Assembly: GCF_001602525.1 (NCBI RefSeq)
Contig: NZ_LSYT01000002.1
Coordinates: forward strand, 744,001-808,000
Reading direction: 5' to 3'
DNA: 64,000 nucleotides
Origin: Flavobacterium chilense
GTDB taxonomy: Bacteria > Bacteroidota > Bacteroidia > Flavobacteriales > Flavobacteriaceae
A program made the translations under genes and the position numbers. Position 1 is the stretch's first letter; every line of letters starts with the position of its first letter. The notes below the pieces were generated by a model. The model searched no databases, was not told the DNA's origin, and saw only the letters and a program-made list of their open reading frames with translations. Shown here piece after piece: positions 9,386 through 61,798 of the stretch.

Positions 9386-9386
9386 G

Positions 9387-10012: not shown

Positions 10013-10013
10013 C
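10001..10013 (+). repeat. attL of element 1: 13-bp direct repeat in the tRNA 3' end
   Basis: CAGGTGGGACCAC forms the 3' end of the tRNA and recurs exactly at 20943-20955. The element supplies this copy, which keeps the tRNA intact. Confidence 0.82.
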
Positions 10014-10042
10014 AAACCGCACTAATTTAGTGCGGTTTTTTT
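10014..10042 (+). terminator. Terminator after the tRNA, inside element 1
   Basis: AAACCGCACTAA pairs with TTTAGTGCGGTTT, followed by a T-run. It lies just inside the element, so the element brings a replacement terminator for the tRNA; the older one probably remains at 20969-21000. Confidence 0.85.
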
Positions 10043-10114
10043 GTTTAAATCCCTTATTTTACAAGGGTTTACGTTTTATTGATAAATAAAATTATCAATA
10101 AATATCAATCCTTT

Positions 10115-10143
10115 TTCTACTGGTTTTCTACCGGAGTTCTACC
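10115..10143 (+). promoter_or_regulatory. Candidate integrase arm sites, left end of element 1 (three repeats)
   Basis: TTCTACT, TTCTACC and TTCTACC start at 10115, 10126 and 10137, exactly 11 bp apart (about one helical turn). Two related units with the same spacing sit at the other end (20864-20881). This fits arm-type binding sites of a tyrosine integrase; the binding role is inferred. Confidence 0.6.
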
Positions 10144-10194
10144 AAATTTATATAAAATCTTTGTTTACATTTGCTTTCTAAATACGCAAATATT

Positions 10195-11388: not shown

Positions 11389-11503
11389 ATGTATAAAAGA
11401 CTATAAAACAATATTTTATTACAATGTTAATAACTGAATTCAGGCGTCAAACATTTATTAGCAATTAGTATTACTTTTATATTTCAATTTAAAAGGAAAC
11501 AAG

Positions 11504-11722
11504 ATGGAAATCAATTTAGGGAAAATTAGTGTAATATATCCAAATGAAAATAGTCCCGAATATAGAAATATAACATTAGCTACAGACGGCGAATTTTTAC
11601 AAATTAATATCTTAGATGATAAATCGCACTCTATAGGAATTACACTAGAAAAAAACGAAGTTGAGTTACTAAGTGATGCTTTAAAACTTATTTTAAAGAA
11701 TAAATTAATTGAATCAGTTTAG
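11504..11722 (+). CDS. Hypothetical 72-residue protein
   Basis: A short protein after an AAGGAAACAAG leader, which gives a usable ribosome site. It alternates beta-like hydrophobic stretches (EFLQINILDD, SIGITLEKNEVELL) and has a helical C-terminus. No family is recognised. It lies between the integrase and the convergent XRE gene. Confidence 0.6.
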   Translation: MEINLGKISVIYPNENSPEYRNITLATDGEFLQINILDDKSHSIGITLEKNEVELLSDALKLILKNKLIESV

Positions 11723-11770
11723 ATTTTATTTCTAACTTTTAAGATTATAACCGTCTACATAGGCGGTTTT

Positions 11771-12292
11771 TTATTTACTGTAATGATATTTTACACTTGT
11801 AAAATTATATAAATCCTCATAAATGGAAAACAAACATTCTTTAGTAATATTCAAAAAATCAATTAGAAATCTATATTCGTATTTAATTGATTTACTAAAC
11901 AAAATGTTGTTTTCATTTAAATTTAGTCTATCCGAAGTTCTCAGAAATTGTTGTAGAAATTTGTCTTCATCATAGGTATAGTCAGTATTAATACACATTG
12001 CTTTTATCAAATCTTTTACTTGATCAATTCTTCCCAGATTTGTTGCAATAATAGTTATCAAAATATCACTCTCATTTTCATTGCCAATTAAACCAGATTT
12101 TTCATAAGGCAATCCCATTTCTTTAGGGAAAGAATTTTGCAATTTCAAAATCATTTTTTTAGACAATTTCACTTCCCCAGCTTCAATTTTTGTTATTGTA
12201 CTCCTACTAACACCTAAAATTTCTCCAAACTCGCTTTGCGTAAGTCTTTGACTTTCACGTATTTGCTTTAGATTAACATCTTTTTTATCCAT
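11771..12292 (-). CDS. XRE-family transcriptional regulator, probable element repressor
   Basis: A 173-residue protein with an N-terminal Cro/CI-type helix-turn-helix (about residues 8-60): LTQSEFGEILGVSRSTITKI contains both helices. The C-terminal half is helical and unassigned. It is transcribed divergently from a small HTH-like gene at 12413, across a 120-bp region with repeated GAGTAA boxes, the layout of a lysogeny-type switch. It probably represses the element's rightward operon. Confidence 0.82.
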   Translation of the reverse strand: MDKKDVNLKQIRESQRLTQSEFGEILGVSRSTITKIEAGEVKLSKKMILKLQNSFPKEMGLPYEKSGLIGNENESDILITIIATNLGRIDQVKDLIKAMCINTDYTYDEDKFLQQFLRTSDRLNLNENNILFSKSIKYEYRFLIDFLNITKECLFSIYEDLYNFTSVKYHYSK

Positions 12293-12293
12293 A

Positions 12294-12377
12294 TTTGAGT
12301 AATTTTTTGAGTAATTTAATGCGTAATAAAATATTTAATTATACATTTGTGAAGCAATATTACTCTTTTTTGAGTAA
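12294..12377. promoter_or_regulatory. Operator-like GAGTAA repeats between divergent regulators
   Basis: TTGAGTAA occurs twice in tandem near the XRE start (12295-12315), and an inverted pair TTACTC/GAGTAA with a 6-T spacer lies at 12360-12377 near the rightward gene. These are natural binding sites for the XRE protein or its partner. Confidence 0.6.
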
Positions 12378-12412
12378 AAAATACAAAAAAAGTATCATTA
12401 AAAATTAAAAAC

Positions 12413-12631
12413 ATGGACATTCAAGAAATTAAAAAACAATTACCTAGTGGAGCAGTAAAACAAATAGCATCTCGAAGTGGTGTTAATTATTGTACAGTTC
12501 AGCGTTTTTTCAGTGGAGAAAAAACAAAAGAAAACTTAAATCTTTTAAAAGTTACTACTGAATTTTTAAAAGAATATAAAACGGCAAAATATGAAGCTGA
12601 AAAAGAACTTCAAGCAGTTGCAAGTGCGTAA
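12413..12631 (+). CDS. Small HTH-like protein, Cro-type candidate
   Basis: A 72-residue protein. The segment GAVKQIASRSGVNYCTVQRF resembles a helix-turn-helix, and the rest is a charged helix. Position opposite the XRE repressor and small size suggest the antagonistic regulator or first gene of the rightward operon. The HTH is recognised by pattern only. Confidence 0.65.
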   Translation: MDIQEIKKQLPSGAVKQIASRSGVNYCTVQRFFSGEKTKENLNLLKVTTEFLKEYKTAKYEAEKELQAVASA

Positions 12632-12648
12632 GATTTTTAGAAAACCTT

Positions 12649-12996
12649 ATGGAAAAGCTAGAATTTTCAACAAACTGGAATAATAAACTGGATTGCAAAT
12701 GTTTTACAACTATTAGGATTTACAACCTATCAAAGCATTTTAGAGGAAATCAGTTCGAAGTTTTTTTACAAAAAAAGTTTAAAACTAAAGCACTGGTATT
12801 AGGAACTATACTAACAAAACTAGATCAACTAAGCGATTACGTTTGTTATTTAGATACAGGATATAACAAAGAAGAGACTACAGCAATTTTAAAAAAGATG
12901 TACCCACATATTGACTTTAAAAAACAAAAAATTTGCATTGTTCTGCTACAAAGGATTGAACCGATAAAACCAATACAACCAACACTTTTTAATTAA
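12649..12996 (+). CDS. ASCH/PUA-like small protein, tentative
   Basis: A 115-residue protein. The pattern FSTNWNNKLDCKCFTTIRI followed by a conserved-looking DTGYNKEET resembles ASCH-like proteins found in Bacteroidota phages and mobile elements, which bind RNA or nucleic acid. I cannot confirm the family by eye. It is the second gene after the switch. Confidence 0.55.
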   Translation: MEKLEFSTNWNNKLDCKCFTTIRIYNLSKHFRGNQFEVFLQKKFKTKALVLGTILTKLDQLSDYVCYLDTGYNKEETTAILKKMYPHIDFKKQKICIVLLQRIEPIKPIQPTLFN

Positions 12997-13144
12997 TAAC
13001 TCATTGAAAAATAAATATAAAGCCAAAAATAAAAAGCTATCCTTTCAAAAACTTAAGGCAAGTTCAGGTATTGATAATTATAAAAGGTCAAGAATATAAA
13101 AGTCGTCCAAACAAGATAAAACCTTATTTAAACACCATTTAAAA

Positions 13145-13759
13145 ATGAATAACAAAGATTTAGTATTTAGTGCTTTGATGGGAAGCAAATCATTTAAAAC
13201 TGTAGAGCGATTAAGTATTGTACAAAATGATTTGACCGTAAAAGGTTTACCAAATATCCCTTTTTTAAGTACCAAACAAGAAGTTGATAGAATACCGGAA
13301 AATCAACAATATTTTCCTTTATCATTTTCTTTTACCTCGACTGGTACTAAATGGTTATTTCCATTTGAGCCTATTATTAATATTACTGGTGGTAATGAAA
13401 TAACAAAGTCGAATGTATCAAAGCACGGTGTAGATAAAAAAGGGCATGCTTATGCAGGCACAATGAAAACGCGATCTTATGTGAAAGATTATGAAATTAC
13501 TATTACCGGAGTACTTATAGGCAAACAACTTACAGGTAAACCGGAAGATTGTTTCCCGAGAACACAAATGAAGGAACTTTTTGAATATTTAATTTTTTCA
13601 GGTCATATATATGTCTACTCACATGTACTGGAACTTATGGGGATAAATCAAATTGTAATTGTAGACTATAGTTTTCCATTCACAAAAGGCGAAAATGTAC
13701 AAGCCTACGAAATAAAAGCCTTAAGTGATTTTCCAGTCAGTTTAATAGTAAAAGACTAA
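13145..13759 (+). CDS. DUF6046-like phage-associated protein
   Basis: A 204-residue protein. The middle section (FPFEPIINITGGNEITKSNV, then YEITITGVLIG) and the C-terminal NVQAYEIKALSDFPVSLIV match my memory of the DUF6046 family from Bacteroidota phages, whose members look like tail or baseplate components. No other structural phage gene is visible in the element, so its role here is unclear. The assignment needs a profile search. Confidence 0.55.
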   Translation: MNNKDLVFSALMGSKSFKTVERLSIVQNDLTVKGLPNIPFLSTKQEVDRIPENQQYFPLSFSFTSTGTKWLFPFEPIINITGGNEITKSNVSKHGVDKKGHAYAGTMKTRSYVKDYEITITGVLIGKQLTGKPEDCFPRTQMKELFEYLIFSGHIYVYSHVLELMGINQIVIVDYSFPFTKGENVQAYEIKALSDFPVSLIVKD

Positions 13760-13773
13760 CCTAAAATACATAA

Positions 13774-14058
13774 ATGAAACACTGGAGCGAATTTTTAGAC
13801 CAGAAAACCCATGCCATAAAAAGGATGGGTAAACTAGCAAATTCATTGACTTTTGAAGTTCAAAGCAAAGAGCTTGAATTGCAAAATGCTAAATTAAATT
13901 TAGAACGATTCGAAAATCAAATTTGCAATAAAATTGCTGAAAATTATTCCAGCGAATGTGAGTTTGAAAGTGCGATACAAGGCGCTAAAAATAGAGCCAA
14001 CTTATGGAATAATGAACCGACGAATACACACAAACCACACACAGTAAAAAATTATTAA
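13774..14058 (+). CDS. Hypothetical coiled-coil protein (94 residues)
   Basis: Starts 14 bases after the DUF6046-like gene. The central segment (LTFEVQSKELELQNAKLNLE) has a heptad-like pattern typical of a coiled coil. No family is recognised; it probably belongs to the same operon. Confidence 0.6.
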   Translation: MKHWSEFLDQKTHAIKRMGKLANSLTFEVQSKELELQNAKLNLERFENQICNKIAENYSSECEFESAIQGAKNRANLWNNEPTNTHKPHTVKNY

Positions 14059-14077
14059 CATCAAATACGCAAAAAAA

Positions 14078-14410
14078 ATGAGCACAGCAAAACAGACTAC
14101 AATTACAGATTACAATCCCAAAGCATTTAAAGAAATAGATAAGGATTTATTTTTTAGTACTAATGAAAACGAGCCTGTAATTAAACAAATTACTTATTCA
14201 GATTTCGAATGTATTGGTAGTGATTTAAAAACAATTTTAAACGCAATTGAAATTATTGGCTTTAATGGTCATCCTTCTGATTTAGCGCTTTGTGCCTGTC
14301 TTGCGGGTATTGCACAAAAACTAGTTCCGAGTGATGAACTGGATTTTTTAGACAGGCTTTTAATTAAGACGGATAAAAATAAAAACGATTTCATAGAAAT
14401 TAAAAAATAA
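14078..14410 (+). CDS. Hypothetical protein (110 residues)
   Basis: An acidic cytoplasmic protein without a recognised domain. It starts 19 bases after the previous stop in a run of same-strand genes. It has a Cys-containing LALCACLAGIAQKL helix. Confidence 0.6.
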   Translation: MSTAKQTTITDYNPKAFKEIDKDLFFSTNENEPVIKQITYSDFECIGSDLKTILNAIEIIGFNGHPSDLALCACLAGIAQKLVPSDELDFLDRLLIKTDKNKNDFIEIKK

Positions 14411-14416
14411 TTCAAT

Positions 14417-14566
14417 ATGGGAAAAATAATAAGAATTGAAAATATATTGATTCATAATGAAAACATGATCTTAACTGCGACAAAAACAAGAATTAAGCTT
14501 TTTGGAAAAGCAATCATAAGCTACCAAAAACAAAGCAATTTAAATACTTTACAATTATGCAAATAG
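14417..14566 (+). CDS. Small basic hypothetical protein (49 residues)
   Basis: ATG at 14417 opens a 49-codon frame (MGKIIRIENILIHNEN...) ending at TAG 14564-14566. It fills the gap between neighbours and overlaps the next gene by 10 bases, which supports translation. It has no recognised domain. Confidence 0.45.
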   Translation: MGKIIRIENILIHNENMILTATKTRIKLFGKAIISYQKQSNLNTLQLCK

Positions 14567-14862
14567 AAGATATCGAGGCAATGATACCCGATTTTAGCGA
14601 AGATATGCTAATCGATTTTAAGACAAATCAAAATGACTTTAAGGCTCTAACTGTTCAAAGAGTTTTTGAAATGCTTTCCAAAAGAAAAATCAGTTCTGCC
14701 ATAGCTAAAACAAATGATTTTTGGGAGCGAATTCATTCAAATATGGAGCTTTTTAGAGCTAGAGTAATCGATGAAATTGACAATGTGATCAAAGCCGATT
14801 TTTCAAATGAGCAAAGGCAAGATTACTTTTTTGATTACGTAGAGAGAAACACAAACAACTAA
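14557..14862 (+). CDS. Hypothetical protein (101 residues)
   Basis: An all-helical acidic protein (MQIEDIEAMIPDFSEDMLID...) overlapping the small upstream frame by 10 bases. No family is recognised. It is part of the 12.4-15.8 kb operon-like run. Confidence 0.6.
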   Translation: MQIEDIEAMIPDFSEDMLIDFKTNQNDFKALTVQRVFEMLSKRKISSAIAKTNDFWERIHSNMELFRARVIDEIDNVIKADFSNEQRQDYFFDYVERNTNN

Positions 14863-14888
14863 CATTAAAATACTTAAAAATAAAATTT

Positions 14889-15500
14889 ATGAGTTTCAAA
14901 AAAATATTTATAGAAAAAAATGATAGTGCAATTAATGGCGAAATAAACCAATTGCAAACCGGACAGAATTATTTTCAAGACTATATAAACAAAGTCTTTG
15001 ACTTGGGCATTACAGATATTGAAAGTGATGATTTAGAACAATTGTTTGCAAATCCAAAGTGTTTTATTACTGATAAACTTACTAAGGGCGAAACCCTGCA
15101 AGTTGCCGGAATGAATTTAAATAAAGAAAAGGTCTTTGAATTACTGGAGAAGCCAGCCGGTACAGAATCTTTAATTATGGAAATTGAAGCCGATATTTTA
15201 GATAAGACTAAAAGAGAATATTTTGTATGGAACGTAAAAAACTATAAAATAGAAAATAGAAATGTTGTAATAAGTGCGGAAACACTCGAATTTATTGCAA
15301 ATAAATATTCCCTGTTTATTGAAAATGAAAACCAGCAACTAGCCTATAATAAATTAAAAGAGATTGAAAGGCTAATGAATGAAATCAACAGTTTACAAGG
15401 TCGAAAAATATCTCTTGATATGGAGCTTAACGATTTTATGAAAAAGGATAGTAACCATCTTTTAAAACTAGATTCACACTTTATTAAATCATTCAAATAA
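14889..15500 (+). CDS. Hypothetical protein (203 residues) with C-terminal coiled coil
   Basis: The N-terminal half alternates beta-like and acidic stretches; the C-terminal third (KLKEIERLMNEINSLQGRKI) is predicted coiled coil. No domain is recognised. It ends seven bases before the excisionase-like gene. Confidence 0.6.
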   Translation: MSFKKIFIEKNDSAINGEINQLQTGQNYFQDYINKVFDLGITDIESDDLEQLFANPKCFITDKLTKGETLQVAGMNLNKEKVFELLEKPAGTESLIMEIEADILDKTKREYFVWNVKNYKIENRNVVISAETLEFIANKYSLFIENENQQLAYNKLKEIERLMNEINSLQGRKISLDMELNDFMKKDSNHLLKLDSHFIKSFK

Positions 15501-15507
15501 TAAATTT

Positions 15508-15792
15508 ATGGATACTAATATAGCAGTAATTACGGTGCCCTTACAAGATTGGAACGACATTAAAACCCAATTAAATAATATTTCAAAATCTATATTAGAA
15601 ATTAAAAACAAGGGACAAAAAGAAAATCTCACACCAAAAGAAGCAATGGAAGTATTAAAATGTAGCCGGAACACCTTACAAAGCTATATAGACAAAGGCT
15701 TTTTCAATGTTATCAAAATGAAGTCGGAAAAATACAGTAAGGTAATAATCAAAAGAGCAGATATTGATTTCTTTATTGAAAGCAGGGCATAA
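15508..15792 (+). CDS. Excisionase-like helix-turn-helix protein of element 1
   Basis: A 94-residue protein with a short coiled N-terminus and a MerR/excisionase-type DNA-binding domain: LTPKEAMEVLKCSRNTLQSY, then a wing ending VIIKRADIDFFIES. Such proteins direct integrase toward excision or act as replication regulators. It directly precedes the Rep gene; the same order occurs in element 2. A terminator follows it. Confidence 0.78.
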   Translation: MDTNIAVITVPLQDWNDIKTQLNNISKSILEIKNKGQKENLTPKEAMEVLKCSRNTLQSYIDKGFFNVIKMKSEKYSKVIIKRADIDFFIESRA

Positions 15793-47947: not shown

Positions 47948-48547
47948 CTATTTATCCGTTTTTTCATTTTCAATATAATTCTCAACTATTTTTAAAAATT
48001 CATCTTTCGTTAAAAAGCGTTTAAAAAAGTCCTCTAACGTTCCTTCGTTTTCAATTTCACTAAAAAACACTTCGTGATCTGTTGAATAAACAGTTGGATT
48101 TTCGGGATTTGGATCTGTCAGACAAACAAAATAGTGATCCGGAAATCCATACGAATAACAAATACAGATAAAATCTAAGTCCTGACCAGTTACAACTTCT
48201 CTAATTTCACTTTCCTCTACAAGTCCGTCGAGTTCATCAAAGTCATCTGAACCTTCTTTAAAAGGGGTAAACAGAAAATTTCTATAAAAAGCCTGTCCGT
48301 ATGGAATTTCATGGTCAGAAAAAAAGTGGTTCAGTAAGTTGTTGTAAAATTCTTGTTTGTCATCTAAATATAACTGACGGTTCTTTGAATAAAATTCATC
48401 AATTCCATACAATTCATCGTCGAAATCATTTGGGTATAACGGATGTTTAAATTCAATTGATTCGAGATCTTCCTGTAAAGAATTTCTTTTTACATTATCT
48501 ATATTGCCTCCCAATCTTTGAATTTGCAGTACTATTTCGTGTTTCAT
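47948..48547 (-). CDS. SUKH-like (SMI1/KNR4) immunity-type protein
   Basis: The ATG at 48547 (MKHEIVLQIQRLGG) is chosen; the longer frame adds an unlikely hydrophobic leader. The C-terminal pattern NPTVYSTDHEVFFSEIENEG then LEDFFKRFLTKDEF is typical of SUKH-like proteins that follow toxins. 199 residues, acidic and soluble. Confidence 0.6.
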   Translation of the reverse strand: MKHEIVLQIQRLGGNIDNVKRNSLQEDLESIEFKHPLYPNDFDDELYGIDEFYSKNRQLYLDDKQEFYNNLLNHFFSDHEIPYGQAFYRNFLFTPFKEGSDDFDELDGLVEESEIREVVTGQDLDFICICYSYGFPDHYFVCLTDPNPENPTVYSTDHEVFFSEIENEGTLEDFFKRFLTKDEFLKIVENYIENEKTDK

Positions 48548-48698
48548 TTTTTGGTTAAATTTACAGTTTTTTATTTTTCCAGCTGTTAGGCAGATAATAC
48601 AATAAATTAGTAATACCACATGCTAAGGTTCATTTGTTAGGTGTGCATAAGCAAACATACTAAGACAATGTTTTTATTTGAACAATGGATAACAAATT

Positions 48699-49136
48699 TT
48701 AAAGTAAAGCAGATTTAATCTTTTTTACATCACGCTGAAAAACATTTAATTCTGTTATTGATATCACTTTGCCTGTTGCTTTTTCTTTAATTACAAAATC
48801 GTAATATGTTTTTCTTAATAAAAAAAATATTGGTCGTTCTTTAAACGGAAGATGTTTTTCCTGTATGACAAAATTGTATGCTGAAGATAAATATTCAGAT
48901 TTACCAATAATTATTTTATCTGTTTCGATAACGCATTTATTATTTCGATAACTTGATATTATTAAAAGAGGCAATAGTATAAATCCAAATAAGCTAAAAG
49001 CACCAATATAAATTATGGAGTTTTGATTTAATACCAGTCCATAAACGAGATTGTAGAATGAACCAATTGTAATAGGTATTGCTAATATTGAATAAAAGAT
49101 GACTATCGTTTTAGATAAGCAAATTGTTAGTTTCAT
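48699..49136 (-). CDS. Hypothetical PH-like membrane protein (145 residues), tandem partner
   Basis: Two N-terminal helices (IVIFYSILAIPITIGSFY, IIYIGAFSLFGFILLPLLII) and a soluble beta-rich C-terminus like bacterial PH domains. It overlaps the next upstream gene by 4 bases and shares its layout, so the two may be old duplicates. Confidence 0.55.
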   Translation of the reverse strand: MKLTICLSKTIVIFYSILAIPITIGSFYNLVYGLVLNQNSIIYIGAFSLFGFILLPLLIISSYRNNKCVIETDKIIIGKSEYLSSAYNFVIQEKHLPFKERPIFFLLRKTYYDFVIKEKATGKVISITELNVFQRDVKKIKSALL

Positions 49137-49585
49137 GCTGATTGTTGTTTTATGGCTTTCTTTAATTCTTCAATGATATAAAATGGCGGAAGATTATTGA
49201 CATTACGTATAAATCCACGATTTTTTTCAGACAAACCTAAAATGTCCAGTCTTTTAAGTTTCTTATTACTTTCATATTTTACAGCAATTATGTAAGTCCA
49301 TCCCCAGTTTTTTCGATATTCGGGGATTAGGTACTTTATAGTCGATAAATCAATAGATTTTTCACTGCCAAAAGTTCTTTTATAAAAAAGTTTATTTCCG
49401 TCGACATAGGCTTTTACGGGATAAATAAATAGAAAAGCAATACAGGCAATTATAAAAAATCCAATGAATACAAGCCTTATTTCCTGTGTGTTAATGAAAA
49501 ATATTCCTGTACTGATTATTATAAAAGGAAGTATTTTGTAGAGATAGAGAGCTTTTTGTCCTTTTCCCTGAAGTAAATCTGTCAT
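49133..49585 (-). CDS. Hypothetical PH-like membrane protein (150 residues)
   Basis: Two helices (YKILPFIIISTGIFFINTQ, RLVFIGFFIIACIAFLFIY) followed by a beta-rich C-terminal domain (LFYKRTFGSEKSIDLSTIKY). Coupled by a 4-base overlap to the downstream gene. Confidence 0.55.
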   Translation of the reverse strand: MTDLLQGKGQKALYLYKILPFIIISTGIFFINTQEIRLVFIGFFIIACIAFLFIYPVKAYVDGNKLFYKRTFGSEKSIDLSTIKYLIPEYRKNWGWTYIIAVKYESNKKLKRLDILGLSEKNRGFIRNVNNLPPFYIIEELKKAIKQQSA

Positions 49586-49623
49586 GTTTTTTTGATTAAG
49601 GTTTAATATTTTGTTTTAGTGTA

Positions 49624-50805
49624 TTAAGACATAGCAAGCAGAAGTTCAACAGTTTTGCGTTTGGCATGATCTAACAAGGCAAGCGTTGTAGGAGTTTGAT
49701 TTTTGTTGTTTAATGCATTTGGGTCAGCGCCGGCATCTATAAGTAGTTTGGCTTTGCGATATACATTTTTTGCTGTTTCGCGATCGCCAGCCGTATATGA
49801 TGTACAAACTTTATGTAACAAAGTGTCGCCATTATTATCTTTTGTATGTGCATCTATAAAACCTTTGTCTAAAACGAATTTCAAAACTTCCAGGGATTTA
49901 TTTGCTAATAAAGAGATAGCTGATATAATTTCTCCATAATGTCCTGTGGCGGTTTGCGAAAAGCTCGCACCCATTTCTATCAGTTTAGAAAGTAGTTGCA
50001 AGTCTGAATTGTTGCCCTTGAAACGTTTCATAAAAGCAATAAAAGAGGTCTCGCCATAATGGTTAACCATTTCAAAATCCGGCACTGCATATTTTTTCAT
50101 TAAGTCAAATGCTTCGTTGCGATCACCATAAGATATGACATAATAAAATGCAGAACATTTGTAATTATCAGTTTCATTGGGATCTGCACCATAATCCATC
50201 AATGTTTTTATATACTGGTAGTTCCTTTTTTTTATGGCATAAATTAAAGTTGTTTCGCCGTCGTTATTTTTTTGATTGATATTAATACCGGCTTCAATCA
50301 ACAAAACAAACCATACTAGTTTGGTTTCTTCAATTATAACATGCCAATAACTATCAATAATTTGATGAAGATAACCTGAGTTTGTGTTGTCTTTGTAGTT
50401 AATATTGCATCCTGCATGTATAAGCAGCGATATAAATTCTGGTGCTAACCCGCTACTAAACCCGTGAGACAGTAAGGTTTTGCCTTTTATTTCCTTGTTT
50501 ATGTTTTTTGTGTTTGAAACCAGATACCTAAAAAAGGCTATGTTTTTTTCGTTTGCCGGAGTATTGTAATCAAAGGCTGAGTAAATTGTATCTGTAAAAG
50601 TGTTGTATTTAGATAAATCCAATTCAAAATTACTACTGCCAAACAGGGCATAAGCCAAATTGCCCGCACCTTCATTTATCAGGCATTGTATAGGATGTAA
50701 TAAATTTTCATGTAAAGACCATTCGCCCTGAAAATCATATCCCTGTATCAGATAATCGTGTAAAGCCTGAGCATCTAAAAAGTCTAGTGTACCTATTGTA
50801 AACAT
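49624..50805 (-). CDS. Ankyrin-repeat protein (393 residues)
   Basis: At least six ankyrin repeats are visible, for example NDGETTLIYAIKKRNYQYIK, LMDYGADPNETDNYKCSAFY and AKLLIDAGADPNALNNKNQT. No signal peptide is evident. In Bacteroidota, ankyrin proteins often appear as toxin-immunity or anti-predator proteins, but the role here is unknown. It is the last gene before the truncated secreted peptide at 50918. Confidence 0.82.
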   Translation of the reverse strand: MFTIGTLDFLDAQALHDYLIQGYDFQGEWSLHENLLHPIQCLINEGAGNLAYALFGSSNFELDLSKYNTFTDTIYSAFDYNTPANEKNIAFFRYLVSNTKNINKEIKGKTLLSHGFSSGLAPEFISLLIHAGCNINYKDNTNSGYLHQIIDSYWHVIIEETKLVWFVLLIEAGININQKNNDGETTLIYAIKKRNYQYIKTLMDYGADPNETDNYKCSAFYYVISYGDRNEAFDLMKKYAVPDFEMVNHYGETSFIAFMKRFKGNNSDLQLLSKLIEMGASFSQTATGHYGEIISAISLLANKSLEVLKFVLDKGFIDAHTKDNNGDTLLHKVCTSYTAGDRETAKNVYRKAKLLIDAGADPNALNNKNQTPTTLALLDHAKRKTVELLLAMS

Positions 50806-51520: not shown

Positions 51521-51566
51521 GTGGAGAATACCGGATTCGAACCGGTCACCCCTTGCCTGCCAGGCA
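51521..51566 (-). pseudogene. Displaced 3' half of tRNA-Ala, left end of element 2
   Basis: On the minus strand it reads from the anticodon loop through a T-arm (ACCGG paired with CCGGT) to ATTCTCC plus A and C. It lacks the D-arm and 5' acceptor. It shares GTGGAGAATAC and a 21-base segment (51546-51566) with the intact tRNA at 61725-61798, but its T-stem differs. Confidence 0.85.
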
Positions 51567-51680
51567 TGAATAAAAATTTATCTTTTGTTTAGAGATGATT
51601 GTTTTTTATAGTAAAACCAGTTGTTTGACATTTTCTGTTTTTCATCTATTTGCTTTTGTTTTCTCTTTATTTTAATAATG

Positions 51681-51709
51681 TTTGACCTATGTTTAACCTA
51701 TGTTTAGCT
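51681..51709 (+). promoter_or_regulatory. Candidate integrase arm sites, left end of element 2 (three repeats)
   Basis: TTTGACC, TTTAACC and TTTAGCT start at 51681, 51692 and 51703, 11 bp apart. Two of them recur at the right end (61655-61672) with the same spacing and orientation. Confidence 0.65.
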
Positions 51710-53029: not shown

Positions 53030-53263
53030 TTGAATAAAAAGGATTTTCAAATAGCATTAGGTCAAAGAATAAGACAGTTGAGAGAAGATAGAAATATTTC
53101 TCAGACTGAATTAGGAATCTTGTGCAATATTGAGAGGACTAATATGAGCAGAATTGAAACAGGTAATACAAACCCTTCAAGCTACTTACTCTATGTGATT
53201 TCTGAAAAACTAGATGTAAAAGCATCAGAATTACTCAATTTTAATTTAACTTCAGAAAAATAA
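53030..53263 (+). CDS. XRE-family regulator of element 2 (77 residues)
   Basis: A compact Cro/CI HTH protein: ALGQRIRQLREDRNISQTEL and SYLLYVISEKLDVKASELL. Starts with TTG at 53030, since a stop lies two codons upstream. It probably regulates itself and the divergent secreted gene. Confidence 0.8.
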   Translation: MNKKDFQIALGQRIRQLREDRNISQTELGILCNIERTNMSRIETGNTNPSSYLLYVISEKLDVKASELLNFNLTSEK

Positions 53264-53451: not shown

Positions 53452-53886
53452 TTACATAAAACCATCTTGAACAAAACTAAAAAAGCTAATTCTACTAATA
53501 ATAAAGTGATCTATTAAAGGGATATCTAATAAGTCACAAGCATCCTTTAATCTCCTGGTAATTTTTTTATCTGCCTCACTTGGCATAAGATTTCCACTTG
53601 GATGGTTATGTGCTAGGATAATACCTGAAGCATTACACTTTAGAGCAATACCTAAAACAATTCTAATATCAACAATAGTTCCTGAAGTCCCTCCTTTTGA
53701 GAGTTCATAAATACCCAGAACAAAATTTGCTCTATTAAGTAAAATAACTTTACATTCTTCTTGAAATTCTATAATATCTGTATTCCATTGAGATAAAATA
53801 AATTCAAAGGTTTGCCTGCAATTGGTTAGTTTTATTTTTTCTGTCTGATTAGTTGAATAACTAACATTTATTTCTGCTACTTCCAT
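53452..53886 (-). CDS. RadC-like JAB-domain protein
   Basis: A 144-residue protein with the JAMM metal motif: H93, H95, S103 and D106 in LAHNHPSGNLMPSEAD. RadC-like proteins are common in Bacteroidota mobile elements; their function in DNA processing is not settled. It has its own neighbours in the recombination group with the next genes. Confidence 0.88.
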   Translation of the reverse strand: MEVAEINVSYSTNQTEKIKLTNCRQTFEFILSQWNTDIIEFQEECKVILLNRANFVLGIYELSKGGTSGTIVDIRIVLGIALKCNASGIILAHNHPSGNLMPSEADKKITRRLKDACDLLDIPLIDHFIISRISFFSFVQDGFM

Positions 53887-53964: not shown

Positions 53965-54360
53965 TTAAGCATGTTCTAGTTCAAGTTTTCCATTCTTTGA
54001 AAAAACATTCTGATTAGGTTTGAAATCCTCATAACTGGGTTCTTGTGGTCTTTTTACCTCTAGTATTTCTTGTGTATACACATATCTGTGTGACATCATA
54101 ATAACCTCACCTGATTCTTTATTTATATACTCATAAGGATCACATTCTTCTTTTATGATTTGCCCTTGCATTTGAGTTCCTATAAGGGCTTTACAAGTCA
54201 CCTCATCAAAGGTTGCTGGAATAAAAGCTTTCTTTGCTGTAGCATAAAAATTGCCAGTAACTTTGCTTTGAATCATTTCAATACCACCTTGAGCTTCTAA
54301 AACAAAAAAAACTTTCCCTTCTTCTGTTTGTCTTTCTTTAAAATTAATAATTGTTACCAT
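53965..54360 (-). CDS. Hypothetical mobile-element protein (131 residues)
   Basis: A soluble protein (MVTIINFKERQTEEGKVFFV, then NFYATAKKAFIPATFDEV) resembling an OB-fold or accessory replication protein. It occurs beside RadC-like genes in other Bacteroidota elements as I remember. The function is unproven. Confidence 0.5.
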   Translation of the reverse strand: MVTIINFKERQTEEGKVFFVLEAQGGIEMIQSKVTGNFYATAKKAFIPATFDEVTCKALIGTQMQGQIIKEECDPYEYINKESGEVIMMSHRYVYTQEILEVKRPQEPSYEDFKPNQNVFSKNGKLELEHA

Positions 54361-54912: not shown

Positions 54913-55872
54913 ATGGGAGGAGAAACATCAAAAAGAAGTGGAGAACACGGAGAAGAAATTGTAGAAAAATTTTTAAGGGAAATTATTGGATACTCTAATA
55001 TTCAAACTGGTAAGAAATTAGAATGTGTCTACAAACAAAAACATGCCATAGCTACTTCAGGTAGTAGATTAACTCATGGTATTGATGCTTTAATTTATGG
55101 CAAAAACAATTTAAAAGACAATAATTTAGAAATTGGTATTATTTCAATCAAACACACAATTGATAAATATCCAACCCTTACAACATTTGATGCAAAATTT
55201 CAAGAGTATTTCAAGGAATTAGTCTACACTATTAGCTGTTTTAAAAAACATACATTAAATTCTGAAATAAACCAATCTAATATTGCTGAAGGTGTGACTA
55301 GTTCTGATTATGTTGGAATATTATTTTGGCTATCTAATAAAGACAGGAATAATGATGATGAATGGAACATTAGAAAAAGAATAACTGCCAAAGCTACAAG
55401 TATTGATAACGAAGTTTATGATAAAATTTTGATAGTTGACAATGATATTTTTGGTTTTCTGTATGAAAATATTTTAACTATAAAACAAACTTATGAGAAG
55501 GTAGATTTTATATATCCTAAAACAGGATTTAATATTTCAAGTAACAACCTTGGTTATGGACAAAAACTTCCATTATTATATTTAAATTCTAATATAATAC
55601 CTTTAAGAATTGAAGATAAATCCAAAAAACATTTATACCTGCTAATTAAAGATGATTTAACAGAAGAAAGCTTTATTAGCTTGATAAATCTAGCAAAAAA
55701 CTTAAACACTCTTCAAACAACAGATAACACTATTTTTTCATTTCCAAATTATAATAAATTTGAACATGAGCAAATTGTAGAAAAAGTACTTGCTCTAAAT
55801 AATATAGACGAGAATTTTAGAAGCCAAATAAAAATTGTGAAACATAAAATTGACTTTAGAAATAATGAATAA
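54913..55872 (+). CDS. GapS4a-like PD-(D/E)XK-type protein, first gene of a candidate anti-phage pair
   Basis: A 319-residue protein. The N-terminus (GGETSKRSGEHGEEIVEKFL, THGIDALIYG with D58, then IISIK with K80) fits a PD-(D/E)XK-type nuclease fold: conserved Glu in GEEIVEKF, D58, then S-x-K. The overall pattern, including LVYTISCFKKH, resembles the GapS4a protein of the GAPS4 anti-phage system described from Gamma-Mobile-Trio elements. The next gene overlaps by 8 bases. Confidence 0.6.
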   Translation: MGGETSKRSGEHGEEIVEKFLREIIGYSNIQTGKKLECVYKQKHAIATSGSRLTHGIDALIYGKNNLKDNNLEIGIISIKHTIDKYPTLTTFDAKFQEYFKELVYTISCFKKHTLNSEINQSNIAEGVTSSDYVGILFWLSNKDRNNDDEWNIRKRITAKATSIDNEVYDKILIVDNDIFGFLYENILTIKQTYEKVDFIYPKTGFNISSNNLGYGQKLPLLYLNSNIIPLRIEDKSKKHLYLLIKDDLTEESFISLINLAKNLNTLQTTDNTIFSFPNYNKFEHEQIVEKVLALNNIDENFRSQIKIVKHKIDFRNNE

Positions 55873-56977
55873 TATACTTCCAAATGGTACAGAACTAAGG
55901 GATCTACTCTCTGATTCTGTTTTAACAACAAATCACATACATAGATTACTAAGGGATAAAGGTATTATAGCTCAGAATTCTGATAAAAACTCAGCTTTTC
56001 CAATATACATGTCACTATTACTTTCTCCCCAAGAGTTTAATTATTTATCTGAAAAAAACAGTGAAAAAGAAGAAAAGGAGAAAGTTGCATCTGTGGTTAT
56101 TCCAATAGATGAAAATATTGAATTAGCAGATTTTTGTATAGACTTAAATATTCATGAAATTTTGAGTAATAAGCTTACTTATAAACCAACTTATGAAGTA
56201 ATTGGTAGTCCAATCTTAGTTATCAATAATGATGAAATTGATTATGAAATAAGACTTAAGTCAACTTCTAATATTAAAGGATGGTCAAGCAGAGAGTCTT
56301 ACCATAATGCCTCTCTTAATTTTAAAAAAGAAAAAGACAAATTAATTGTAACAAAAATCCACACCTCAAAAGATTCAGAAAAAGTACTTAATTTTGCTTT
56401 AGACAACTATGAAGAGCAATTAAATAATAAGGGTTACACTAGAAAGGGTAAAAAAATAGACAGAATTTTATTTAATGATTTTACTAATGAAAATAGGTTC
56501 AGTTTTTTCTATTCATTTGCAAAAGATTTTAAAAATGTCCTAGAATTTGAGGAGATTACTGACATAGATATACTTCCAGATTATGAGGACAGCAAGGCAT
56601 TACCAGAGTCATTGAAAGATTTTTTAGAAAACGTTAATACTCTAAATCTAAAAGGAAAAAAATTGCAAGGACATATATTTATAACTCAAAAAGAAAATCA
56701 CAATTTCATACAATTAAAATCAATAAAATTCAAATATAAATTGAGCAAATTAGGTTGTGATGGAAACTGTGTTATTGAATTTGAATTTCCTGACAAGAAG
56801 AATATGGACATTTCTGAATTTCAATTTAATATTTCAAATTTATCAATTAATAAAGAAGATAGAGAAAAAGTAACCCTTAGGACAATTACAAAAAAAATTA
56901 ATGGTGTTTTGAATAGTCATAAATTAGATAACTATGAGCTGTACCAAAGTAAAAACATTGAGGAACTTCAATCTTAA
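55865..56977 (+). CDS. GapS4b-like partner protein
   Basis: The ATG at 55865 (MNNILPNGTELRDLLSDSVL) is chosen over a TTG at 55850 and overlaps the first gene by 8 bases. The N-terminus with TTNHIHRLLRDKGIIAQN and LLLSPQEFNYLSEK matches my memory of the GapS4b family. The middle and C-terminal parts are unassigned. The coupling supports a two-gene system. Confidence 0.58.
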   Translation: MNNILPNGTELRDLLSDSVLTTNHIHRLLRDKGIIAQNSDKNSAFPIYMSLLLSPQEFNYLSEKNSEKEEKEKVASVVIPIDENIELADFCIDLNIHEILSNKLTYKPTYEVIGSPILVINNDEIDYEIRLKSTSNIKGWSSRESYHNASLNFKKEKDKLIVTKIHTSKDSEKVLNFALDNYEEQLNNKGYTRKGKKIDRILFNDFTNENRFSFFYSFAKDFKNVLEFEEITDIDILPDYEDSKALPESLKDFLENVNTLNLKGKKLQGHIFITQKENHNFIQLKSIKFKYKLSKLGCDGNCVIEFEFPDKKNMDISEFQFNISNLSINKEDREKVTLRTITKKINGVLNSHKLDNYELYQSKNIEELQS

Positions 56978-57201: not shown

Positions 57202-58071
57202 TCAATTGTGGTAAGTAGTACTTCCATTAATATTCAATGTTTTAGGGTTCAATAATAGTTCTTTTGGGCTAATAACATCTTTTTGAAGTTTGAAATCATA
57301 CTCTAATAATTCCCTCCAATTACTGTATTGGTTATAGAGAGCTTTCAACTCTTCAACAGTTTTAGTAGTTCTGATTTTCTCTCTTGCATCTTGCAAATTA
57401 GTTCCACTATTGCACCATTCCAAAATCTTTTTGCCAGTCTGAGAATTTATTACAAATTTAGGTTTACCCATAAACAAGCCTGTTCTGTCCTTACTTGATA
57501 CTGCAAAATGATTGATGTCAATTTCAAAGACTAAAGTAAATTCATAATCTAAATCATTTCTTTGAATAGCCTTTAGTCCAACTTTTTCAGGAATAAACTT
57601 TCCATCTTTTTGATTCAAAACATAATCTTGTTTTGTTCTCATAGTTGCTATAATGTGAGTATCTACCTGTAAAATTTTATCAATGAAAGCATTTTGTCTT
57701 GGTGTTACTTTTGCCCAATTGGTAAATGAGTTACCTGCTAATGAACTATGATAGTTAAGCAATTCTTCCCAAGCCTGAGAAATTGAATCTATAACAATAA
57801 CTTCCATTCCTGCTTTTTCACATACTTCAATAGCTTTAATATAATTTTCTGGTGTAAATGGTGGTTTGAGTGAGAGTACATTATATTGCCCTAAATGGGC
57901 ATATAAATCAGCACTACCATTTTCACTGTCTATGACTGCTACTTTACTAAAGTCTCCATTTGCTAGACCTTGAGCAAGTAATAAAGCACTCATACTTTTC
58001 CCACCTCCTGAAGGAGACTGTAAAGCCATTTTTATTTTAGCTTTTCTTCTTTCTGATTGTCTTAGTTGCAT
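57202..58071 (-). CDS. Sak4-like AAA/RecA-type ATPase (phage nucleotide-binding protein)
   Basis: A 289-residue protein with Walker A SPSGGGKS (about 19-26), Walker B VIVIDSISQAW (D95) and IDSENGSADLYAHL between. This is the order of the phage Sak4/AAA_24 RecA-like recombinases, which anneal single strands with an SSB. It may assist the element's replication or recombination, next to the integrase. Confidence 0.8.
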   Translation of the reverse strand: MQLRQSERRKAKIKMALQSPSGGGKSMSALLLAQGLANGDFSKVAVIDSENGSADLYAHLGQYNVLSLKPPFTPENYIKAIEVCEKAGMEVIVIDSISQAWEELLNYHSSLAGNSFTNWAKVTPRQNAFIDKILQVDTHIIATMRTKQDYVLNQKDGKFIPEKVGLKAIQRNDLDYEFTLVFEIDINHFAVSSKDRTGLFMGKPKFVINSQTGKKILEWCNSGTNLQDAREKIRTTKTVEELKALYNQYSNWRELLEYDFKLQKDVISPKELLLNPKTLNINGSTTYHN

Positions 58072-58107: not shown

Positions 58108-59355
58108 CTAAACAGCAAATCTTAATTGGTTGTAATTTTCTAAAGGTTCTTGAAGCAATTTTTCATTTGCATCATCAATAATATCATTGTCAAAATCTTT
58201 TAAATACACAGTTGTAATGCCAACATCTCTATGTCCCATTGACTGACTTATTATATCTGTGGAAATTCCTTTCTCTTTTAAATTTGTGGCAAAACTATGC
58301 CTTGCTACATAACTTGTTATAGGTTTGTTTATTCCAACTGCTAGTGCAATGTCTTTTAAATCTTTGTTGAATTTTTTTAGTTTAGCAGTTTTTCTATTAT
58401 CAATTTGAGTAGGTGTTAATCCTTCTTTTAGTAGGATAGGAAAGATATAGTCAGTAGATTTTTGAAGACTTTTATAATAACTAAGGATTTCTTCTACTGG
58501 TTTTAAAATCTTAACTGCAAATTTTCCTTTAGTTTTAGAACGTATATATACTATTTTATCACCTTCAATATTAGACCACCTAAGTTTCATAATGTCATGA
58601 AAATTCATGCCTCTTGAGTAATATGAAAAAACAAATAGCTTTTTAGCTTCTACCAAATGAGGATATTTATTTTCATTTAATTCTTCAATCAATTTAATTT
58701 CTGATCTCATTAAAGCTCTTTTATTATTGCTTTTTTTTAGTTTTGAAATTTTATAGGCTTTAAAGGGGTAGTGCTTATTGTCTACTAATTCATTTCTAAT
58801 AGCATCATTATAGACAGCTCTTAATTGTCTCATTTTAACACTAATGCCACCATCTTCATTTTTATTGGCTCTTAAATAAGTTTCATATTTGTCAAGTAAA
58901 GGAGGTGTAATGTCTTTGAAAAGCATTTGTTTATTTTGTGAGAACTTAAAAAATGACTTTTTAGTTTCATTATACGCCTTTGCATTTCCTATCCTTCCTG
59001 CTTGTGTCAAATCATTAATCTTGTTGTTCCAAAAATCAACAACACTTACATTGTTCCCAGATTTACCTCTGAATTTTTCCTCAAATTGAGTTAGTGTAAA
59101 GTCAATTCCTTCAAGATTAAAATCATCAATTATTTTTAATGCTTTTACTTTTATGTTAAGGAGTACCCTATTTCTTTGCAAATAGTTTGTGTGATTCTTT
59201 TTAAATTGACCAGTAGCTTCATCCCAGTCTTTTCTTAAGCATTCCATATTTAATGAAATTACTTTTGGCTTTCTATCTTTTATTATTCTTAACACTATAG
59301 GAAACAATCCTTCTTTAGTTATTTTATCTCTTAATATAATTTTAATGCTTGCCAT
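58108..59355 (-). CDS. int: Tyrosine recombinase/integrase of element 2
   Basis: A 415-residue protein with an N-terminal arm-binding domain (about 1-95), a SAM-like domain (about 105-205) and a catalytic domain. Catalytic residues: R248 in YYSRGMNFHD, R352 and H353 in SYVARHSFAT, H375 in SMGHRDVGI and Y384 in TTVYLKDF. The usual first His of the H-x-x-R box is Ser here, as in some Bacteroidota integrases. It lies after the Rep gene and acts on the tRNA-Ala site. Confidence 0.94.
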   Translation of the reverse strand: MASIKIILRDKITKEGLFPIVLRIIKDRKPKVISLNMECLRKDWDEATGQFKKNHTNYLQRNRVLLNIKVKALKIIDDFNLEGIDFTLTQFEEKFRGKSGNNVSVVDFWNNKINDLTQAGRIGNAKAYNETKKSFFKFSQNKQMLFKDITPPLLDKYETYLRANKNEDGGISVKMRQLRAVYNDAIRNELVDNKHYPFKAYKISKLKKSNNKRALMRSEIKLIEELNENKYPHLVEAKKLFVFSYYSRGMNFHDIMKLRWSNIEGDKIVYIRSKTKGKFAVKILKPVEEILSYYKSLQKSTDYIFPILLKEGLTPTQIDNRKTAKLKKFNKDLKDIALAVGINKPITSYVARHSFATNLKEKGISTDIISQSMGHRDVGITTVYLKDFDNDIIDDANEKLLQEPLENYNQLRFAV

Positions 59356-59415: not shown

Positions 59416-60309
59416 TTAGTTAGTAATTAAGTGATTGAATTGTGTTATCAATTGATTTCTCAAGTAGTTCTTTTCCTTTAAAAGATTATGCTTTTTCAAT
59501 AGTGATAAATATTTGTTTTTGTGAGTCATCTTTTTCTGTCTTTTATTTTGAGATGTAAGTTGCTCCCAAAATGAAAAACTTGAATACATATTTAATTTCT
59601 CAAAATCCTCTAAGCCTGTTACTTCAAATGAAAAGTCATCAACAATTAATAATTCCTCAAATCGATTTAACGAATAATGAAATAGCTTATTCAATTTCTC
59701 CTTGTTTTTTAAATCATTAATATTAAATACACCAAGCTTATTAAACTCTTTCTGACTTATAAACTTAATTTCAAACCTTAAAATGTTCTTGTCTTTAATA
59801 CCATACTGTTTAGCTTTATCATAAATCTTAATGATGTAATTGTAGTGTTCAAACATCAGTAAATAGCCATTGCCTTTAAACTTTTTTACAGCTGAATGCC
59901 TTTCAAGCTTGTGCATTAGAATACTTTTAGATATTAAGTCTTTTGCTTCTACTGGTATTCTAATATTTAAACCAAATTCTAATTGAGTTAGTTTTGTTGT
60001 AGTAATGTCAATTATCTTATCTTTTAAATAATCAACTGTTGAACATAATTGAGAATAATTAAAATCATTGTGGTTGTGTCCATCTCCTTCTAATAATAAG
60101 TTATTAAGCTTATGCATAGAGTTCTTCACATAACCACTTGTTTCATTGACAGCTATCTCCATGTTTTCAAGATTTGTTTTATATGGATACAATATTTCTG
60201 TTGAATTCATTTCCAATACAGAATAAATTTTCGGGAATAATTCTGGCTTAAGAATAGATGTCTCTAGCCTTCTCTTATCACTATAGTGAACTCTTATAAA
60301 ATCAATCAT
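59416..60309 (-). CDS. rep: Replication initiator-like protein of element 2
   Basis: A 297-residue protein beginning MIDFIRVHYSDKR, homologous by pattern to the element 1 Rep: HKLNN, TQLEFGLNIRIPVEAKDLI, IIKIYDKAKQY and ILRFEIKFISQKEF. The YDK...R-x-E order fits gpII/X-like initiators. It overlaps the excisionase-like gene by 4 bases (ATGA), so they are co-translated. No origin-like non-coding region follows it as in element 1. Confidence 0.62.
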   Translation of the reverse strand: MIDFIRVHYSDKRRLETSILKPELFPKIYSVLEMNSTEILYPYKTNLENMEIAVNETSGYVKNSMHKLNNLLLEGDGHNHNDFNYSQLCSTVDYLKDKIIDITTTKLTQLEFGLNIRIPVEAKDLISKSILMHKLERHSAVKKFKGNGYLLMFEHYNYIIKIYDKAKQYGIKDKNILRFEIKFISQKEFNKLGVFNINDLKNKEKLNKLFHYSLNRFEELLIVDDFSFEVTGLEDFEKLNMYSSFSFWEQLTSQNKRQKKMTHKNKYLSLLKKHNLLKEKNYLRNQLITQFNHLITN

Positions 60310-60602
60310 GACTTTAATTTTTGAGTTCGACTTAAGTAAGAGCCTACTTCATTATCAAGTTCAGCAATTGAATTTGATTTACTGCTTAATACCCAATTTT
60401 CAAGTTCTGATTTTTTGAAATATATTTTCTTGCCACCAGGATTATAAAAAGGGATTTCCTTTTTGCTAGTCATCTTGTAAAGTGCAGACTTTGATAAATT
60501 CAAGTATTCTGCCCCCTCATCAAGAGTTAAAATTTCTTTACTTAGAGCATATTGTTTTTTTAACAATGCTTCTATTTCTAATATTTTTTGGAATAAGTCC
60601 AT
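60306..60602 (-). CDS. Excisionase-like helix-turn-helix protein of element 2
   Basis: A 98-residue protein: a short coiled N-terminus, then LTLDEGAEYLNLSKSALYKM as the HTH and a wing IPFYNPGGKKIYFKKSELEN. It has the size and position of the element 1 counterpart (15508) and is directly coupled to rep. Confidence 0.8.
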   Translation of the reverse strand: MDLFQKILEIEALLKKQYALSKEILTLDEGAEYLNLSKSALYKMTSKKEIPFYNPGGKKIYFKKSELENWVLSSKSNSIAELDNEVGSYLSRTQKLKS

Positions 60603-60725: not shown

Positions 60726-61610
60726 TTATTTCAAATACTCCTTTTTTAGATTTGAAATGTATTTGTCTATTCTGGATTTTTCTATATCTATCTTATCTTT
60801 ACCCCTAGACAAAGAGACATAAATATCATTGCCTTTAAAAGGCTTGTTTTGCTTGTTTAAGAAAACTTTGCTTAGTTCAACTTTAGTATGATTAAATTCA
60901 TAGAAAAATGGTTTTAAAGATTCTAAAAAATATCCTGCAACATAATTATTGCAAAAAAATCTAATCTTATTTTCTAATAGTTCTGGGTTTGATGAAGTGA
61001 AAGCATTTATAAAATCAATCTCCTTGATTTCAGAATCATCAATTATATTTAATGTATATGCCATTTCATATAGACTAATATAAAATGAATACTTTAAATC
61101 TTTATCTCTGAAAAATGTAATGTCAGTTTCTTTTATTAAATACTTAAAAACATTATGATATTCTATTAAGGTTGGAAATCTGTCTTTTATAAGAATTATG
61201 ATTTCAATCAATTTCTTTTCTACTAGATTAATATCAGCATCTTCCAGCTTTATGACTCTCTTTAAAAGAAGCTCAATGTCATCATTAATACCTTTTAAAT
61301 AAGCAACATTATTAACAACTCCTGGTTTTTTTAAAATTTCTGACTCTATATTTTTGTAAATTGATTTATTTTCAAAAGTCATTAGTTTGTCCAAAAAATC
61401 TTCTATCTTAATAATATCAATTACAAAAATTGGATTTGTACCATTATCATCAACCATTTCCTCCTTCATGTAATAATTATACTCTTGAATGTAGGAATAC
61501 CCATTTTTTTGAAAAGTTGAATTTCTATTAAAGGATTCTCTTACTGATTGTATACTATTTACAAAAAGCATATTAAAATAAAATGAAAGTAATGTATTTG
61601 GTGAATTCAT
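60726..61610 (-). CDS. Unknown cargo protein of element 2 (294 residues)
   Basis: A helical, acidic cytoplasmic protein. It has a C-terminal basic helix (DKIDIEKSRIDKYISNLKKE) and several long amphipathic helices. No family is recognised. It lies just inside the right end, transcribed alone with its own terminator, a position often used for cargo. Confidence 0.6.
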   Translation of the reverse strand: MNSPNTLLSFYFNMLFVNSIQSVRESFNRNSTFQKNGYSYIQEYNYYMKEEMVDDNGTNPIFVIDIIKIEDFLDKLMTFENKSIYKNIESEILKKPGVVNNVAYLKGINDDIELLLKRVIKLEDADINLVEKKLIEIIILIKDRFPTLIEYHNVFKYLIKETDITFFRDKDLKYSFYISLYEMAYTLNIIDDSEIKEIDFINAFTSSNPELLENKIRFFCNNYVAGYFLESLKPFFYEFNHTKVELSKVFLNKQNKPFKGNDIYVSLSRGKDKIDIEKSRIDKYISNLKKEYLK

Positions 61611-61654
61611 AAAACTTTTTTTAATAACTCATAAACACAAAGAAAGTACAAATG

Positions 61655-61672
61655 TTTGACCTATGTTTAACC
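61655..61672 (+). promoter_or_regulatory. Candidate integrase arm sites, right end of element 2 (two repeats)
   Basis: TTTGACC at 61655 and TTTAACC at 61666, 11 bp apart, identical in word and spacing to the first two left-end units. Confidence 0.65.
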
Positions 61673-61681
61673 TAGTGAAAT

Positions 61682-61712: not shown

Positions 61713-61724
61713 AATTTTAGTGAG

Positions 61725-61798
61725 TGGAGAATACGAGATTCGAACTCGTCACCCCTTGCCTGCCAGGCAAGTACTCTAGCCAAATGAGCTAATCCCCC
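61725..61798 (-). tRNA. tRNA-Ala (GGC anticodon)
   Basis: The acceptor GGGGGAT pairs with ATTCTCC through G-U wobbles, with an A discriminator. The anticodon stem CTTGC/GCAAG has loop CTGGCAG (anticodon GGC), and the T-arm is ACGAG/CTCGT. The CCA end is not encoded. The 5' half is chromosomal; the 3' half was supplied by element 2. Confidence 0.92.
61749..61769 (-). repeat. att repeat in the anticodon region of tRNA-Ala, right end of element 2
   Basis: A 21-base exact match to 51546-51566, ending in the anticodon loop and stem (GCCTGCCAGGCA on the plus strand). Confidence 0.82.

Follow-up and report, generated by a model that had tools for sequence, protein, structure and literature searches.

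A stretch of 64,000 nucleotides from the Flavobacterium chilense genome (hereafter the window) carries two overlapping genes which, judging from their family profiles, almost certainly form a genuine and intact two-gene GAPS4 anti-phage system. Regarding its mode of action, we consider it fairly probable that the pair, which is the cargo of an integrated element, works as a triggered GapS4a nuclease under the control of GapS4b. A wider reading is favoured a little less firmly: GAPS4 may be a modular chassis with an exchangeable nuclease, as represented by a mostly Bacteroidota clade, present in this same genome, in which the GapS4a active site appears lost, a Cap4/LmuA-type nuclease stands in front, and both subunits form one chain constantly followed by a gene for NA37. 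Under the same reading, NA37 would be a third GAPS4 component, possibly a reader of DNA or of its topology. The features concerned are collected in Table 1.

Table 1. Features of the GAPS4 element (window positions) and the NA37 gene of the fused locus (positions in L010)
Feature	Position	Strand	Basis and remarks
Left attachment core (22 bp), repeating the anticodon-arm region of tRNA-Ala	51545..51566		Beside the displaced tRNA 3' part (about 51521-51544); limits by eye
24-bp exact repeat, putative integrase arm site (left)	51677..51700
Small HTH regulator	53030..53263	+	PF13560 1.7e-09
RadC-like JAB-domain protein	53452..53886	-	PF04002 4.7e-36; homologues in L062, L113, L114
131-aa backbone protein, cargo slot border	53965..54360	-	Homologues in related elements
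gapS4a, predicted PD-(D/E)XK nuclease subunit, 319 aa	54913..55872	+	NF047933, AlphaFold2 model, fold matches, motif tally (E14, D58, S78, K80)
gapS4b, partner, probably sensor, 370 aa from ATG	55865..56977	+	NF047934; no assigned fold
AAA_24 ATPase, backbone, other cargo slot border	57202..58071	-	PF13479 4.1e-18; homologues beside other cargo
Tyrosine integrase	58108..59355	-	PF00589 1.1e-18, with SAM-like and arm-binding domains
297-aa element protein, no family	59416..60309	-	No Pfam/NCBIfam match
Excisionase-like helix-turn-helix protein	60306..60602	-	TIGR01764 48 bits (cut-off 28.8); PF12728
294-aa element protein, weak DUF6617	60726..61610	-	PF20322 17.3 bits, below cut-off 27
24-bp exact repeat, putative integrase arm site (right)	61651..61674
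tRNA-Ala (GGC), integration site	61724..61798	-
Right attachment core, inside the intact tRNA-Ala	61748..61769		Repeat search; limits by eye
NA37 gene after the fused gene, window's genome	L010 10202-11239

The initial annotation had proposed a GAPS4-type pair and had named profile searches and PADLOC as ways of checking it. Both full-length proteins exceeded the curated NCBIfam cut-offs: GapS4a reached 320.2 bits against NF047933 (cut-off 270, profile positions 1-302 of 302, E 1.3e-95) and GapS4b 313.6 bits against NF047934 (cut-off 300, positions 1-355 of 355, E 1.4e-93), the margin of the latter being only 13.6 bits. PADLOC (version 2.0.0 of 2023) matched neither protein. GAPS4 and these two profiles reportedly go back to Mahata et al. 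in 2024, and a PD-(D/E)XK nuclease core is a trait of the GapS4a family. Pfam provided nothing for GapS4b and a single chance-level match for GapS4a (E 0.97), and a PDB sequence search with GapS4a returned two chance-level matches only, both to acetolactate synthase. The short segments on which the proposal had been based were all found, namely GEEIVEKF, THGIDALIYG and IISIK in GapS4a, LRDKGI and LLLSPQEF in GapS4b, and the overlap of the coupled genes was indeed exactly 8 bases (55865-55872), with both frames intact. A TTG codon 15 bases upstream of the gapS4b ATG offers an alternative start and a product of 375 aa. The order a then b, with both genes adjacent and co-directional, was common to all 17 two-gene loci compared.

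The pair of the window is diverged from every sampled relative. Its GapS4a shared 36% identity with the closest one in the tree set (G324), and its GapS4b 28% over the tree columns, or 31% in BLAST (G681). The initial annotation had also suggested an extension of the known range of GAPS4. This is only partly supported, as the genes recur in the phylum and the order and the window locus is thus no lone outlier. Among 395 phylum genomes, six had GapS4a-like genes; the fused form described below occurred in two of these six and was the sole form in one. GapS4b was present in 8 of 395 order genomes. Seven of 395 genomes of the class gave GapS4b matches, including two (G1045 and G999) taken as chance and discarded, with 20.4 and 18.4 bits over 73 and 88 profile positions in ORFs that looked outer-membrane or secreted by eye. 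Searches by tblastn with the window proteins (E 1e-5) found no match among 50,697 phage records and the pair in two of 72,556 plasmid records, from Pantoea and Ewingella. Six IMG/VR contigs bore GAPS4 pairs; on two near-identical viral contigs, L057 and L060, GAPS4 cargo (about 5000-7070) had neighbors which appeared phage-tail-like by eye, and L060 was dropped from the counts for its near identity to L057.

Residues E14, D58, S78 and K80 of GapS4a were invariant in all 17 two-gene homologues, that of the window among them, and the residue tallies reported here were identical under three MAFFT modes. The AlphaFold2 model of the window protein (pLDDT 79.3, pTM 0.81, from a 13-row alignment) displayed a helix-strand-strand-strand-helix core as in PD-(D/E)XK enzymes, D58 and K80 lying on consecutive strands. 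In VIA-align, where best Z-scores of 7-8 are common without kinship and where a family missing from the lists is not thereby excluded, the model matched Upx 9wuf (Z 10.4, 3.3 A over 133 residues), AF1548 1y88 (Z 9.6, 2.6 A over 117), Shedu SduA 8ps4 (Z 8.8, 4.3 A over 166), XisH 2inb (Z 8.7, 3.4 A over 122; another XisH row at 8.6) and McrC 6hz4 (Z 8.0, 4.8 A over 139), these matches covering residues of about 7-224. The matched PDB regions count among nuclease folds. By Foldseek, the sole match below 1e-3 was acetyl-CoA carboxylase 5trc, with SduA 8ps5 at 1.4e-3; since these E-values are weak, the fold call is based on the Z-scores and the conserved residues. On the strength of the model, the N-terminal part (about residues 7-193) is predicted to be a PD-(D/E)XK nuclease fold that has kept its putative catalytic residues, as the initial annotation had supposed. 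Residues of about 180-313 matched RPB5-like chains of the ASFV RNA polymerase (Z 8.6 and 8.3) and, at lower scores, EndoMS, Cap4 and EcoO109I (Z 6.2-7.1), which suggests that the predicted C-terminal half could be a second nuclease-like domain devoid of the motif.

The small Bacteroidota integrative element on which the pair had been placed was recovered as a unit of about 10.2 kb integrated at tRNA-Ala. Its 22-base core lies within a 55-base repeat of 85% identity, the copies being 10,203 bases apart. The integrase scored 19.7 bits against the GmtY model (cut-off 340), well short of GmtY, and the element can thus not be called a gamma-mobile-trio element; no other Gmt-named match was obtained from NCBIfam among the eight element proteins scanned. 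To the left of the element (47948-50805, minus strand), the window encodes a cluster of small proteins, in part membrane-like, together with one of ankyrin-like appearance by eye.

Among 150 genomes of the genus, 15 gave matches to the AAA gene. With two weak or broken ones set aside, there remained 13 genomes, the window's own included, and 14 loci. Eight of the 13 non-window loci, together with L062 from another family of the same order, were compared with the window as nine relatives. A slot between the AAA gene and the gene of the 131-aa protein was observed in the window, L062, L113, L114, L115 and L116; L119 and L120 showed a different gene order around the AAA gene, and no 131-aa gene was present within the stretch covered for L117 and L118. 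Homologues of the 131-aa protein were 54-63% identical in L062, L113, L114 and L115, and 48-51% identical in L116, L119 and L120. The slot of L062 held a GAPS4 pair (37% and 31% identical to that of the window) among other genes, one of whose proteins had only a weak PADLOC match (LeoBC, 0.002). That of L114 held LmuA, LmuB, a CBASS cyclase, QueC, TGT and OGG (8974-15586, minus strand; PADLOC), an LmuB gene lay near the AAA gene of L117 (PADLOC), and two slot proteins of L116 had no PADLOC match. Defence genes thus accompany the AAA gene in the window and in three of the nine relatives (L062, L114 and L117), the PADLOC scan having covered genes of L062, L114, L116 and L117; the slots of L113 and L115 contain one and two genes, respectively.

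The genome of the window (G000:C18) contains a second GAPS4-related gene and therefore both the two-gene and the fused form. A whole-genome GapS4a search gave a weak match inside an 891-aa gene (L010 7527-10202, plus strand), in whose product NCBIfam recognized GapS4a at residues 205-485 and GapS4b at 530-884, nearly full-length and below the cut-offs. An 895-aa homologue from Chryseobacterium cheonjiense (genome G012, L042), a species of the same order as the window's, had a similar layout. The fused proteins L009 and L008 scored 136.1 and 161.5 bits for GapS4a (cut-off 270) and 145.6 and 129.6 bits for GapS4b (cut-off 300); according to these two scanned sequences, the fused form is homologous to GAPS4 and is no member by the curated cut-offs. 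A scan of one genome per species from 84,980 species, with patterns drawn from the fused nuclease domain only, retrieved 18 fusion loci, 16 of which were full-length. L039, which at first resembled a fusion of the nuclease domain with a MAD3 part (152-1018), was rejected, its tail being an ABC-transporter end by eye and the MAG contig probably chimeric; L041, broken near a contig end, was left out. With the copy of the window's own genome, this made 17 distinct fusions, a few of them near-copies (e.g. L025 and L040). Most hosts belonged to Bacteroidota (Flavobacterium, Dokdonia, Lunatimonas, Chryseobacterium, Paludibacteraceae and unnamed MAGs); two further MAGs bore the labels Clostridia and Woesearchaeota, although MAG labels may be wrong. 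A search of viral contigs with a few peptide patterns found no fusion, and a profile built from a two-sequence fusion alignment gave chance matches only against the PDB.

All 17 fusions, each from a different record, had full-length open frames (884-898 aa) and formed one clade with 100/100 support in the GapS4a tree and in the GapS4b tree. At the position aligned with K80, none of the 17 had a lysine (L in eight, I in six, and E, Y and D in one each), nor was there any lysine within two columns of it. E14 was likewise kept in 0 of 17; D58 was still D in nine and S78 still S in ten, so that the proposed loss of activity in the fused GapS4a part is deduced from the lysine and E14, given that D58 and S78 are partly retained. 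The added first 200 residues or so displayed D43 and a QxK motif (K59, L042 numbering) in 17 of 17 fusions and in four of four plasmid homologues. Residues 1-98 of L042 matched the PADLOC endonuclease effector PDLC00735 (2.9e-14), and a weak match to a type II restriction family (mREase_II, E 0.0079) fell on its residues 432-503. The first 190 residues or so were used from a fusion model with an overall pLDDT of 66.2 and pTM of 0.37 (blocks 11-140 mostly at 78-88). This N-terminal domain aligned with LmuA 9ux7 (Z 10.6, 3.4 A over 158 residues), Cap4 6wam (Z 10.3, 4.4 A over 160) and HerA-DUF (Z 9.2); by Foldseek, the sole match below 1e-3 was acetyl-CoA carboxylase 6g2d, followed by SduA at 1.1e-3 and Cap4 at 2.0e-3. 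The top VIA row, Hachiman 8zue, was set aside for its rmsd of 21.4, and KA1-like matches of the GapS4b part (Z about 8) were too weak to be used.

The same nuclease domain also heads proteins without BLAST-detectable GapS4 parts on plasmids of Agrobacterium, Aminobacter, Priestia and Mesobacillus. The Agrobacterium plasmid (L043 2678-7080) combines a helicase-related gene, an MzaB-like ATPase and the Cap4-type nuclease-domain protein, possibly another defence system. Beside the fused gene of the window's genome (L010 435-5501, minus strand), PADLOC indicated a defence island with DRT-type reverse transcriptase (UG6), nitrilase and DnaG-like genes. Next to the fused locus of G012 (L011 3915-6555, minus strand), it indicated a type III-A retron RT with a PRTase; a tmRNA gene lay nearby, as did an ORF that was integrase-like by eye. 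Among the neighbors scanned, four plus NA37 in L010 and three in L011, PADLOC detected neither a nucleotide cyclase nor LmuB.

A gene for the nucleoid-associated protein NA37 (PF04245) directly followed the fusion in 17 of 17 cases, at a spacing of -4 bases in ten, -1 in five and +2 in two. Two copies were identified by Pfam (3.2e-34 and 2.1e-34) and the others by BLAST (40-49% identity to the copy of the window's genome). Among the 16 testable two-gene loci (L061, whose sequence ends at gapS4b, is excluded), NA37 came after gapS4b in five (G253, G285, G487, G935 and G778) and was absent from 11, including the window. These five loci fell on one branch side, supported at 100/99 for GapS4a and 92/88 for GapS4b. 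An origin of the fusion from this group was considered and abandoned, the trees giving a long branch that separates the fusion clade from all two-gene loci. The immediate 3' position of NA37 after two-gene GAPS4 was noted in L013, L014, L064, L065 and L066, where it is a possible third component.

NA37 is also common outside the GAPS4 context (42 of 119 genomes of the order), and 29 such loci had no GapS4-like ORF within flanks of about 1.5 kb. In a tree of 52 NA37 rows, 19 of 22 GapS4-linked copies stood apart (95/86) and three did not, so that a single dedicated clade was not established. No published tie between NA37 and defence was found in the literature covered, which comprised no preprints. 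The fused, NA37-coupled form is probably undescribed so far, as far as literature other than preprints and the founding GAPS4 paper is concerned.

The fused relatives are the best evidence for a division between effector and sensor in GAPS4. They have lost the lysine, gained a nuclease of Cap4/LmuA type and kept the rest of GapS4a together with GapS4b. The simplest account is an exchange of effectors, in which the GapS4a active site was lost once a Cap4-type nuclease had been fused in front. If this swap is read correctly, the GapS4a nuclease would be the effector and the remainder would sense or control; GapS4b, which has no confident fold match, is proposed as sensor by elimination only. In the mechanism that we propose, GapS4a would be held inactive together with GapS4b, presumably in a complex. 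Upon infection, GapS4b and probably also the C-terminal GapS4a half would recognize a phage-linked cue, and the nuclease would then cut DNA, stopping either the phage or the infected cell. Where NA37 is present, one may guess that it presents DNA or its topological state to the GAPS4 complex.

Neither an infection sensor nor self-damage would be needed if GapS4ab were a stand-alone restriction-like enzyme, reading a property of the incoming DNA (its modification, structure or ends) and cutting this DNA directly. The fold neighbors of GapS4a, including McrC, SduA and several restriction enzymes, agree with such an enzyme, as does the lack of a co-directional ATPase or cyclase in the unit, the AAA gene being on the opposite strand and beside other cargo in relatives; NA37, as a nucleoid-associated family, would also suit it as third gene at some loci. 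However, fusions that keep the GapS4a body and GapS4b alongside a nuclease of the CBASS/Lamassu type would, as an indirect argument, be better explained by a triggered effector, and we hold direct restriction to be unlikely, if worth serious consideration.

An overlapping gene pair that lies on a mobile element and includes a nuclease gene also recalls a toxin-antitoxin module, with GapS4a as toxin, GapS4b as antitoxin and element maintenance as main role. This is quite improbable: GapS4b is larger than the nuclease, and on two related elements the same AAA gene has defence genes next to it. Moreover, both halves are held in one chain in the 17 fusions, so that a separable antitoxin could not act there by decay. 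The last alternative, by which the fused gene would stem from faulty assembly or annotation or be GAPS4 in decay, could draw on the low scores of two fusions (136-162 against 270 bits for GapS4a, 130-146 against 300 for GapS4b) and on two of 18 loci looking chimeric (L039) or broken (L041), but is largely refuted, as an artefact, by the number of intact copies, and its chances are negligible in view of 17 intact frames from 17 records in one fully supported clade, all followed by NA37 at -4, -1 or +2.

With the triggered nuclease as the preferred reading, the fusions would separate the GAPS4 effector from its sensor through a natural removal of the GapS4a active site and the addition of a different nuclease. 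If right, this also names the residues to mutate, provides a third gene (NA37) and makes the GAPS4 trigger directly testable. The window locus itself contributes an intact and diverged GAPS4 from a type of Bacteroidota element that also bears Lamassu and CBASS genes.

Comparison with known systems gives the following picture. GAPS4 was described in the setting of gamma-mobile-trio elements, whereas the pair of the window sits on a Bacteroidota tRNA-Ala element with an integrase below the GmtY cut-off. Upx, Shedu SduA, XisH, AF1548 and McrC have a fold core like that of GapS4a residues 7-224 or so, but the PDB sequence search revealed no sequence relationship with them, and their partner proteins differ from GapS4b. 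Cap4, LmuA and HerA-DUF, from CBASS, Lamassu and related systems, resemble in fold the N-terminal domain of the fused relative (Z 9.2-10.6 over about 160 residues); only in the latter, however, is this domain joined to GapS4a- and GapS4b-like parts.
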